Source: Fibrobacter sp. UWB11 (GTDB lineage Bacteria > Fibrobacterota > Fibrobacteria > Fibrobacterales > Fibrobacteraceae). Taken from it: a stretch of DNA of 64,000 bases. The notes under the pieces were generated by a model. That model saw nothing but the letters and a program-made list of their open reading frames with translations, did no database searches and had not been told where the DNA came from. This document shows positions 39,514 through 43,716 of the stretch, piece after piece (positions within the stretch are counted from its first letter, which is position 1; each line of letters starts with the position of its first letter). The stretch spans positions 992,001 through 1,056,000 of the forward strand of contig NZ_FSRT01000001.1 in NCBI RefSeq assembly GCF_900143015.1, given 5' to 3'. The position numbers and the translations under genes were made by a program.

Positions 39514-41151
39514 CTAATTGAAAATGTTCTGTATATTCTGGAACAGGCGGCTTAACACTCCGGTGGAATCGCTGATTTTTTCGAGTGCATGCTGCGGCGT
39601 GTGTACCACAATTACAGATTCGTTCTTGTCGTAAGGAATCGAAAAGTCAATAGAATTGCTGCGTTCTTCAGTGATGCTCATTGCCGCAATGCAAAGGTCC
39701 GTCTTTTCGTTTACGAGGGACGGAATCAGAACGTCGAAGTTCATGTCGGCAAACTTGATGTTCTTGTTGAGCATCTTGCCGATCGTGTACATGATATCGA
39801 TGTCGATGCCCGAAAGTTCGCCCCATTGGTAAAATTCATAAGGGGCATACAGGGCTTCTGTGCCGACAATTAGTGTGTCGTTTCCGATCCAGTCCTGTTG
39901 CATGACTCTTACGGCAGATTTATTCTTAGACCATTTCTCCTTGATTCGCCTGATTTCGCCTTTCTTTTGCAAAACACTGATGCTCGAATCGATCCTTGCC
40001 TTGAGCGGACTATTTTTCCTTATGGCGATTCCGAATTCGTCTTTGTTCAAACGGTCTTTTAAAATGGAAAAGTCTGAATGGTTCTTGAGGATTGTTTCTG
40101 CTACTGAATAGTCTACGGCGATAGCGTCGATAGTTCTTTGTTCTAGAGCCTTTGTCATTTCGGGAATGTGCGCGAAGTACTGGATGCGCGGAAGCTTGAT
40201 CAGCTGCTGGACTTGCTCATCAAGAGTTGTTCCTGTTTGAACACCCACAAACTTTCCGGACAAGTCGGCTAGCTTGTATATTTCATCGGGCTTTTTCGGC
40301 TCGAGATAAGTCATTTTAGGTACTTTGCTTAAAGACTCTTCTTTATTGAAGTTGTCCTGGCGGACAGCAAATGCTGTTTTTCCGATGTAATAGGGCTTCG
40401 AAAAATCGATGTCGTCTGTATATTCGTCCGCTTTTGTGAATGCCGAAATGATGAGGTCCGCTTCGTTGTTCTTTAGTGCATTTACGAGCTTATTGCGCTC
40501 TGTCTTGATAATCGTTGCATTGACGTTGAGCTTTTCTTCGAGAAGTTTAATGATGTCGAGGTCGATGCCCATAATTTGATTTTCGCTTATAAAGGAAAAT
40601 GGCGGTACATCGGCTGATGTTGCTATTCTCAAAACTTGTTCCGAATCGTTTTTCTTGGGGCTGATGAGCGGGTTCTTTTTTGAATTTTTGTTCCAGTGGT
40701 CGTTGAGCTCGGTTAAAGTCCCTGCAGCGTTTAAACTGTCAATGAGCTTGTTGATAATCCCCTTGAGGTCCGGGATGGAACTGTGCTTGTTCATGCCGAT
40801 AACGATTTCATTAGGAATATCTATATCGTTTGGGATATAGGTGAGTCCGCTCATGCTGTCGTTAAAGGTGTGATAGAGGACGATTTCGTTGTAGGCGAGG
40901 GCATCGATTTCGCCTACCTGGAGTGCAAAGTATGCTGTAATCAAATCCGGATAGGGTTTGATATTTGCTTTGGGAAGCTGTTTTTCGATAGATGCTTGGA
41001 TGCTAGAAGATTGTTCGACTCCAATGGTGTATTTGGGGGAGTTTGCCTTGGAAGCCGAGGTCAGTTGATCCTTGGATGTTCCTTTGCATCCAGTGTTAAT
41101 TGCAAGTAGTGCGCCAATGAAAATATTGAATATTACATAACGTATTCGCAT
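39514..41151 (-). CDS. Lipoprotein of rearranged family-3 solute-binding domains
   Basis: A 545-residue lipoprotein (probable C22 in AINTGC). Residues 41-156 (YTIGVEQSSSIQASIEKQL..., GEIDALAYNEIVLY, LTELNDHWNKN) correspond to the second half of a family-3 periplasmic binding protein. Residues 173-417 form a complete domain (VLRIATSADVPPFSF, MGIDLDIIKLLEEKL, FVGVQTGTTLDEQVQ, RRIKEKWSKN). Residues 426-520 are a first half only (LIVGTEALYAPYEF, SGIDIDIMYTIGKML, MSITEERSNSIDFSIPYD). The order is therefore lobe II, complete domain, lobe I. Such proteins bind amino acids or act as sensor domains; no transporter or kinase is nearby. The start fits a TACATT box 6 nt upstream. Confidence 0.78.
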   Translation of the reverse strand: MRIRYVIFNIFIGALLAINTGCKGTSKDQLTSASKANSPKYTIGVEQSSSIQASIEKQLPKANIKPYPDLITAYFALQVGEIDALAYNEIVLYHTFNDSMSGLTYIPNDIDIPNEIVIGMNKHSSIPDLKGIINKLIDSLNAAGTLTELNDHWNKNSKKNPLISPKKNDSEQVLRIATSADVPPFSFISENQIMGIDLDIIKLLEEKLNVNATIIKTERNKLVNALKNNEADLIISAFTKADEYTDDIDFSKPYYIGKTAFAVRQDNFNKEESLSKVPKMTYLEPKKPDEIYKLADLSGKFVGVQTGTTLDEQVQQLIKLPRIQYFAHIPEMTKALEQRTIDAIAVDYSVAETILKNHSDFSILKDRLNKDEFGIAIRKNSPLKARIDSSISVLQKKGEIRRIKEKWSKNKSAVRVMQQDWIGNDTLIVGTEALYAPYEFYQWGELSGIDIDIMYTIGKMLNKNIKFADMNFDVLIPSLVNEKTDLCIAAMSITEERSNSIDFSIPYDKNESVIVVHTPQHALEKISDSTGVLSRLFQNIQNIFN

Positions 41152-42021: not shown

Positions 42022-43716
42022 ATGAGTGACGATTCAGACATTTCCTCAAGTGTCGTTGGACTTGATCGAAAGAAAATCAAAGATTTCTTTTTACGAAAAC
42101 TTCCTGAGATGAAGGAAGCGGTTATTGATGCTATTATTGAAATTTTGCCGAGTGTCCCGCACTACCAAGAAGAAAATGATCATTTCACGTTTAGAATCAT
42201 CATGGGAAACGGTAATCCGCCGATGGGCTGGAACCGCCGCATTTATGATTTTTCGGGTGATGCGTTAGAAAATTTGTTCAAGGAACGAGTCAAGGCATGC
42301 TTGAAGGATGTCATTCATTTTTGCAAGAGCGACTGTGACCTGATTATCCAGCAGATGCCTGCTCGTGAAAAGGTGGATTCGTCTATCCAGGTCGGAGTTT
42401 TCCAGTCGGACTTGGGTAACGCTGGCGAAACGGAACGTGCGCTTCTCGAAAAAGGCTTTTTGCTGATTGAATGTGTGAACCGTTCCAAAATTTGCATAAA
42501 CTCGCATACGCCTGCGGGCGTGAGTGATCACTTGCTCATTCGCTTTGACCTGGATGAAAATGAATTTTCGGACAATTTAGAAGACAAGGACTTGGACTCG
42601 TACCCGAAGGGATTTTGGGCGGGCCTATTTTCGCAAATCAAGAGGGAAGTCCATGGAACTATTTGCTTGTTCGTGGACCCGTCCTGGAATGGTAACGAAG
42701 ACGAAAATTTTGATGCCGGCAAGATAGTTTTTGAAGACTACAAGGAAATGCAAATCAAGCCGGACTCCATGTTGGACTCGCAGTCGTACCGCGACTTGTA
42801 CGAACAGAATTTTATCCGTAAGATGTTCATCTCGATGCTCAATTATGATGGCATTACGGTAATCGATACGAATGGTTGCGTACGTGCATTCCACTGCTTT
42901 GTGTCTATCCATCGTGGTAAGTTTACATCGGGTGGTGCAAGGCACCGTGCTTACAGGGCCTTGGCGAATTTGTTCAAAGACAATGAATGTTACAAGGCGC
43001 TATACTTCCAGTCGCAAGAAGGTAACATTAGGTTCTATCACAAGTTCCGTGTTTCTCCGTCGTTTGATTCAGCTGTGATGGACGACGATCAAGACGAAGT
43101 CGATAATGTTAATGTAGTGTCGAAAAACGCTGATGGTATGGATGGGAAGACATCATCGCTTGCATCGGCGATAAACGCTGGAATTTCCGAAAGTACTCCA
43201 GTGGATGAATCTTCTGCGTTGTCGGACTATCTCGACCGCTTGCGTGATGCGCATTTGGGAATTGACAATTTCTACAACGAACCGAAACCTGCCGAAGATT
43301 TGTATAACGCTACTCTCGAAATGACAGACGAATCTTGGAGTCGTGTCAATGTCGAGCGTATTATCAATGTGCCGCTTGTTTGCTTGATCGGTAATTCTTA
43401 CGGTTATTCGACGAACGCCGAACCGTTCCTTAAGAATATTCTGGAGAAAATCCCGAATTCTGTTTGGAGAATTTACTTGAACAACAAGTGCTATGAGGAT
43501 TCGTCGTTATCGTCTACGCTGGGAAGCAAGAATCAGGAAAGCCAATGGTCCAAACTCATGAATGAGACCGGCACCGATGATTCCGAAGCTGAAAAGTATG
43601 TGACCGATGAATTGGCGGAACACATCAAGACGGTCTACAAGCACGTCAGCAAGCAGTTTGCCCAAAAGTTCGAAGAAGAACGCAACCTTTGGGAAAACCT
43701 GTTTAAGGGTTATTAG
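42022..43716 (+). CDS. Orphan protein with a diadenylate-cyclase-like (DAC) core
   Basis: A 564-residue cytoplasmic protein without signal or membrane helix. The middle carries LNYDGITVID (D276, G277) and SGGARHRAYRAL (R307, H308, R309), then YFQSQEGNIRFY. In DisA/CdaA enzymes, which make c-di-AMP from ATP, the DGA and RHR motifs are about 32 residues apart and followed by SEETG; the spacing here is 31. Ala replaces the usual Thr before RHR and Ile replaces Ala in DGA. The N-terminal 230 residues and the C-terminal 200 match nothing I know; an acidic, Ser-rich linker (360-400) separates the C-terminal part. The ATG at 42022 lies 8 nt after TACTTT. It overlaps lgt tail to tail by 14 bases. Cyclase activity is inference. 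Confidence 0.6.
   Translation: MSDDSDISSSVVGLDRKKIKDFFLRKLPEMKEAVIDAIIEILPSVPHYQEENDHFTFRIIMGNGNPPMGWNRRIYDFSGDALENLFKERVKACLKDVIHFCKSDCDLIIQQMPAREKVDSSIQVGVFQSDLGNAGETERALLEKGFLLIECVNRSKICINSHTPAGVSDHLLIRFDLDENEFSDNLEDKDLDSYPKGFWAGLFSQIKREVHGTICLFVDPSWNGNEDENFDAGKIVFEDYKEMQIKPDSMLDSQSYRDLYEQNFIRKMFISMLNYDGITVIDTNGCVRAFHCFVSIHRGKFTSGGARHRAYRALANLFKDNECYKALYFQSQEGNIRFYHKFRVSPSFDSAVMDDDQDEVDNVNVVSKNADGMDGKTSSLASAINAGISESTPVDESSALSDYLDRLRDAHLGIDNFYNEPKPAEDLYNATLEMTDESWSRVNVERIINVPLVCLIGNSYGYSTNAEPFLKNILEKIPNSVWRIYLNNKCYEDSSLSSTLGSKNQESQWSKLMNETGTDDSEAEKYVTDELAEHIKTVYKHVSKQFAQKFEEERNLWENLFKGY

Follow-up and report, generated by a model that had tools for sequence, protein, structure and literature searches.

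Diadenylate cyclases (DACs) are known chiefly for the production of c-di-AMP in osmotic, cell-wall and DNA-damage control. The DACN-type domains of Pfam act as N-terminal sensors on these enzymes, and Galperin is said to have described, in 2023, DAC proteins bearing N-terminal sensor domains. The ATP contacts of CdaA are made by the Leu of the GALI motif, the Asp of DGA, the Gly-Thr-Arg-His stretch of GTRHR, and the Ser and two Glu residues of SEE (PMC7288161). In the system DS-2, phage defence depends on a DAC adjoining CBASS and is abolished by catalytic mutants of that DAC (PMC13092281); in the literature found, DS-2's is the only DAC tied experimentally to phage defence. The protein considered here, encoded in a stretch of 64,000 nucleotides from Fibrobacter sp. 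UWB11 (the window), shares its fold with the DACs of PF02457 (DisA, CdaA, CdaS and CdaM), along with the order and spacing of the counterparts to GALI, DGA, RHR and SEE, but displays GGAR-H in place of GTRHR and S-Q-E-G in place of S-E-E-T-G, and falls below the Pfam cut-off. It lacks the partner domains of DisA and CdaA and bears N and C domains of its own. The idea of an N-terminal sensor feeding a DAC is common to this protein and the sensor-DAC proteins, although its N domain matches no Pfam sensor model. Its family lies outside the current DAC family cut-off and has its own partners, yet retains the fold and the greater part of the active site. The best reading of the gene is a cyclase or nucleotide-binding switch that was recruited from a phage-defence module and became fixed in one Fibrobacter clade, and which probably belongs to the nucleotide-signalling part of phage defence rather than to cell-wall control.

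The 51 longer ORFs contain a single instance of DG-x(25-40)-RHR-x(10-30)-S-x-E, which lies in the target ORF (Table 1); the pattern is absent from 200 shuffled windows and arises once in 20,000 shuffles of the target protein. An earlier note on this DNA had located the DGI and RHR motifs (RHR at 307-309) 31 residues apart, followed by SQEG, and these positions are correct. Its description of the protein as an orphan holds for the locus in the window only. A gene read by eye as lgt converges on the target, with 14 bases of overlap between the two; the names orn, PBP and lgt, like the identification of a 199-aa neighbour, are putative readings of this kind. The gene is under strong purifying selection, with a median dN/dS of 0.049 across the whole gene among Fibrobacter-clade orthologues, a figure that is rough, like the other dN/dS values given here, with synonymous sites near saturation. 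Among the ORFs around the target gene, read by eye, no defence gene adjoins it and no CBASS arrangement of a CD-NTase cyclase and effector in the same operon is present. PADLOC-DB 2.0.0 holds no model that matches the target protein or its relatives, and NCBIfam, PADLOC and Pfam, run on the family, returned no match above cut-off. Elsewhere in the window, positions 39514-41151 encode a lipoprotein-like protein with parts resembling repeated solute-binding domains. At 62-82% identity it changes faster than the adjoining genes, and it is missing at the same place in loci L026 and L028.

Table 1. Features of the target gene, with positions counted from the first letter of the window
Feature	Residues	Position	Strand	Basis and remarks
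Whole gene	564 aa, ATG start	42022..43716	+	ORF; N domain, DAC-fold domain, linker and helical C domain
N-terminal alpha/beta domain	10-175	42049..42546	+	Common to the whole DAC-like family, fused and unfused; pLDDT mostly 70-94
DAC-fold domain (predicted)	196-347	42607..43062	+	Structural match to DisA; Foldseek; Pfam DAC; dN/dS 0.014
VHGTICL strand	210-216	42649..42669	+	Counterpart of the DAC GALI motif; G212 in 23/23; role of GALI from PMC7288161
DGI	276-278	42847..42855	+	DGA of DACs, Asp contacts ribose; D and G in 23/23; hhalign register
GGARHRA	304-310	42931..42951	+	GTRHRA of DACs, phosphate contacts; G305, R307 and A310 in 23/23
SQEG	331-334	43012..43023	+	Counterpart of (V/I)SEE; Ser contacts phosphate and the second Glu the metal
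Linker	350-398	43069..43215	+	Variable, low confidence (pLDDT about 23-50); dN/dS about 0.2
Helical C domain	399-564	43216..43713	+	H411-x(3)-DNFYNEP and GNSYG; tblastn E 2e-5 to 8e-3; hhalign

The sequence of the core is a distant one. Pfam DAC (PF02457) was the best of 24,736 models for the target (E 0.0029, residues 235-314), at 17.6 bits, and at 20.7 bits in a search of the whole genome (3.76 Mb), against a gathering score of 27 bits; a paralogue of about 32% identity (L012) matches the same model independently (E 0.0024). Alignment by hhalign to a genuine CdaA alignment set DGI on DGA and GGARHRA on GxRHRA (E 8e-4, probability 25%). Profile and single-protein searches of the sequences of solved structures returned no DAC match, and against solved structures the kinship is detected by fold comparison alone. 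The AF2 model of the whole protein had a pLDDT of 64, and residues 1-358, remodelled with prophage relatives, reached 77. Both models were set against the PDB. With the second, a VIA comparison placed DACs in each of the first 40 positions (Z 8.1-11.3), ahead of an unrelated entry at Z 3.3; DisA leads (Z 11.3, with 119 residues aligned at 2.7 A), DacA has a Z of 10.3, and DacM and CdaA are also among the matches. Foldseek, given the same model and the PDB, likewise returned a list of DACs, with a probability of 1.00 and E values down to 6.7e-5. The predicted models assign residues 196-347 to the DAC fold, clearly by structure and weakly by sequence. The DAC-like core put forward in the earlier note, which had itself proposed a structural comparison, is borne out by this match and by the retention of almost all ATP-contact residues. 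Its view that the flanks are unlike the partners of DisA, CdaA and CdaS also stands, with no such matches in Pfam and with the structural match confined to 196-347. Current family models, as this case shows, miss catalytically plausible DACs.

Conservation in the active center was counted in 23 family members, 15 fused and 8 unfused, with site equivalences that rest on alignment. Beyond the invariant positions listed in Table 1, residue 331 is Ser in 22 of the 23 and Thr in one, while residue 333 (Glu or Asp) and G334 are kept throughout. The middle Glu of SEE is replaced by Gln or His in the family, and by Gln (Q332) in the target. Position 306, a Thr in DACs, is Ala or Ser and never Thr across the 23 members, with Ala in the target. 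H308 is retained in 15/23, these being all 15 of the fused proteins, and each of the 8 unfused ones has Lys, Arg or Ser instead. The target itself presents D276, G277, G305, R307, H308, R309, S331 and E333, and deviates at I278, A306 and Q332. Because the Thr before RHR is absent and the His of RHR is replaced in the unfused members, catalysis may be altered or lost; judged by these residues, the window protein could plausibly be an enzyme, the unfused members less surely so. The new class of cyclic-dinucleotide synthase suggested in the earlier note is no more than a possibility, given the replaced His in 8 of the 23 members.

The N domain (dN/dS 0.022 for residues 10-190) has no convincing fold match in VIA or Foldseek with the model of residues 1-358. 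No Pfam match to the DisA linker or to its helix-hairpin-helix DNA-binding part was found in the target, and N-terminal membrane helices of the CdaA/CdaM type are absent, the N part being predicted as alpha/beta with many strands. The C domain (dN/dS 0.056) has a helical-repeat-like AF2 model, in which confidence is low after about residue 500. Its assignment as an ARM/HEAT-like repeat was considered and rejected, as the matches are weak (Z about 7) and may represent a common helical arrangement.

A genome scan recovered orthologues of 77-92% identity in a matching genomic position within a single Fibrobacter clade, and paralogues of about 30% identity at unrelated loci in other Fibrobacter lineages. 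Altogether, the family is present in 26 of 168 Fibrobacterota genomes, all in one genus of 41. Within the window clade, the gene is found in all nine genomes in which the adjacent 199-aa gene reaches 88% identity or more; the target gene was not seen beside the 199-aa gene in 19 other loci, two of them cut by contig ends. Such a pattern indicates that the window copy is inherited vertically within its clade. The scan also gave one fused relative in Butyrivibrio, the sole strong case among 391 genomes of the Butyrivibrio class, where the family is rare, and, in Clostridia, short forms that lack the C domain. The DAC-like part has no relatives in phage records or in E. coli genomes, and viral-collection contigs scanned with the fused proteins gave no match, while a profile of the unfused form led to three contigs. 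As judged from these matches, the DAC-like family, which lacks annotation, spans Fibrobacterota, Bacillota and Pseudomonadota, and is carried on plasmids, prophages and chromosomes. In genome G011, a paralogue of the target is broken (L015 1489-2976), with N- and C-terminal pieces remaining and unrelated sequence between them.

Three architectures can be discerned: the DAC-like protein is fused to the C domain (Fibrobacter, Butyrivibrio), is encoded as a separate protein A upstream of a protein B of ~440 aa (Vibrio and Agrobacterium plasmids, prophage contigs), or has neither arrangement (Clostridia). A comprises the N domain and the DAC-like domain, and B a HEPN-like region and the C domain. 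In tblastn searches of plasmids, matches to the target are confined to residues of about 370-564 and lie in proteins called hypothetical; the C domain is recovered in plasmid proteins of about 440-490 aa (hhalign 98.9%, E 3e-17). The gene immediately 5' of B on the Vibrio and Agrobacterium plasmids encodes an unfused DAC-like protein, related to the Clostridia form with BLASTP E values of 4e-29 and 1e-21, and the family alignment profile matches unfused A by hhalign (98.7%, E 3e-16). The three viral-collection contigs carry the A-B pair as well. The N-terminal motif of B, together with sub-threshold Abi_C matches, reads as the HEPN motif R-x6-H: stand-alone relatives of B bear RN-x2-(S/G)-x-(A/S)-HP or a close form in 14/14 cases, and the motif is lost in 5/5 of the A-paired B proteins. 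These five constitute a single clade (100/100 support), and the loss of the motif is therefore one evolutionary event, not five. In a tree of the C domain, the fused proteins group with A-paired B and apart from the stand-alone HEPN proteins (93/92 support). This grouping points to an origin of the fusion in an A-B pair that lost its HEPN-like part, the order of events being inferred. The target protein has no HEPN domain, with no R-x4-6-H motif found, and only the C domain is held in common. Likeness to HEPN RNase toxins such as Tha (PMC11087260) and to HEPN-MNT pairs extends to the HEPN-like character of B and its stand-alone relatives and to carriage on prophages and plasmids; the differences are that the window protein lacks a HEPN part and that A-paired B lacks the catalytic motif.

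Relatives of the gene are found repeatedly in the company of defence genes. The Agrobacterium A-B pair adjoins a CBASS cyclase and phospholipase (E 9e-120 and 1e-154), a setting that resembles that of DS-2 when the two are compared by description, although no partner of the B type is described for DS-2. The fused gene of Butyrivibrio lies directly 3' of PARIS AriA and AriB (E 4e-29 and 1e-27). In the Fibrobacter genome G511, a gap of 17 bases separates a fused gene from the DrmMI-type methylase gene before it, and a DrmD/DpdE-type helicase is also encoded (E 1e-199 and 3e-152); in this DISARM-like operon (L157 2434-18996 and L158 641-5827), the DrmD/DpdE-type gene and a large helicase precede the fused gene, and SMEK, HNH and PDC-S56 genes come downstream of it. 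Another fused gene comes after a DruE-type helicase gene that is shortened, the Vibrio pair is near a BsuBI/PstI-type restriction-modification pair, and one prophage pair is near a putative DNA cytosine methylase and restriction genes read by eye. The association with defence is strong for the family and indirect for the window copy.

The most likely account of the target, though one for which belief and doubt are evenly matched, is a DAC-fold nucleotide cyclase module that is coupled to a regulatory C domain and stems from a family associated with phage defence. It is favoured by the fold, the conserved site with its low dN/dS, the A-B operons, the defence neighbours of relatives, the grouping of the C domain and the independent precedent of DS-2. 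At related loci, the module is split into A and B, with the HEPN catalytic motif of B lost; in the window lineage, A adjoins the C domain within one protein, with no HEPN-like part between them. The C domain, the N domain or both may sense a threat or cellular disturbance, whereupon the DAC domains would meet face to face, as those of DisA and CdaA do, and may form, by condensing ATP or another NTP, a cyclic-dinucleotide alarm signal. A defence role in the window clade is itself inferred. Most defence genes are not inherited vertically, and the vertical inheritance of the window copy, along with the absence of an adjoining defence gene, counts against this account. The same genome also encodes an ordinary CdaA as a separate gene (E 5e-39), which should already make c-di-AMP and would blur an alarm based on that nucleotide. 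A fuller version is put forward tentatively, as more doubtful than the account above: the family may be an anti-phage signalling system that pairs a divergent DAC-fold enzyme with a regulator descended from HEPN RNases and deprived of their nuclease site, the nuclease output having been swapped for a nucleotide signal, and the window gene may be its fused chromosomal version, with a product that could be a cyclic dinucleotide different from c-di-AMP. If true, this would widen DAC biology into immunity, and it provides a defined gene set for testing: a DAC-fold family on plasmids and prophages that is paired with a degenerate HEPN-like protein.

The main rival is a nucleotide-binding switch without synthesis, whereby a catalytically weak or dead DAC fold would act as a sensor and switch the C domain or B in response to ATP, a cyclic dinucleotide or another nucleotide. 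The incomplete retention of the RHR His and the consistent absence of the preceding Thr agree with such a role, as does the encoding of A and B side by side in one operon or as one fused protein, but D276, R307, S331 and E/D333 are conserved across three phyla to a greater extent than simple binding would demand, and every fused member keeps the His; we regard the switch as unlikely, if still a serious competitor to the cyclase. Improbable by comparison is a housekeeping c-di-AMP synthase for cell-wall or osmotic control, which would account for the conserved synteny beside lgt, PBP and orn in the clade and for the strong purifying selection. The link to the cell wall and Orn drawn in the earlier note is not supported, as the gene is convergent and not co-transcribed with the lgt/PBP/orn block, is missing from most Fibrobacter genomes, has relatives at unrelated loci and in defence settings, and shares its genome with the ordinary CdaA. 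A nucleotidyltransferase of antitoxin type, inactivating a HEPN RNase through AMPylation as in HEPN-MNT pairs, would suit the five loci in which A is encoded beside a HEPN-like B, but this toxin-antitoxin model is very improbable and was rejected: the motif is lost wherever the DAC-like gene is present and kept in the stand-alone relatives, so that neither A-paired B nor the window protein, which has no HEPN part, offers an RNase to neutralise. Finally, it is barely credible that DGI, RHR and SQEG form a chance pattern in a protein unrelated to DACs, a reading that could draw on the sub-threshold Pfam score, the low hhalign probability and the profile searches without a DAC, but that is contradicted by the 40 leading structures and the gap in Z behind them, by the concordant motif register in Pfam, hhalign and the structural range, and by the shuffles.

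Two further groups of genes were encountered during the searches. In Clostridia, the unfused DAC-like gene lies beside a sigma-factor-like gene and ahead of a cardiolipin-synthase-like one (L037 51-2140 and L038 2859-4951), a setting unlike those of defence; no canonical DAC was found in these two small genomes, which are probably incomplete. The stand-alone proteins with a HEPN-like region and the C domain, of about 450 aa, form a single-gene family that no model of Pfam, NCBIfam or PADLOC matches above its cut-off, including L040 4152-5570, L042 3080-4447, L043 2062-3426, L044 3089-4549, L060 3887-5299, L092 4959-6311, L094 4578-6041, L096 4887-6314 and L016 1315-2658. One stand-alone member is matched by 74 plasmid records, many of them from Escherichia, Shigella and Klebsiella, and by their RN...HP motif and C domain these proteins look like a HEPN toxin or defence family.
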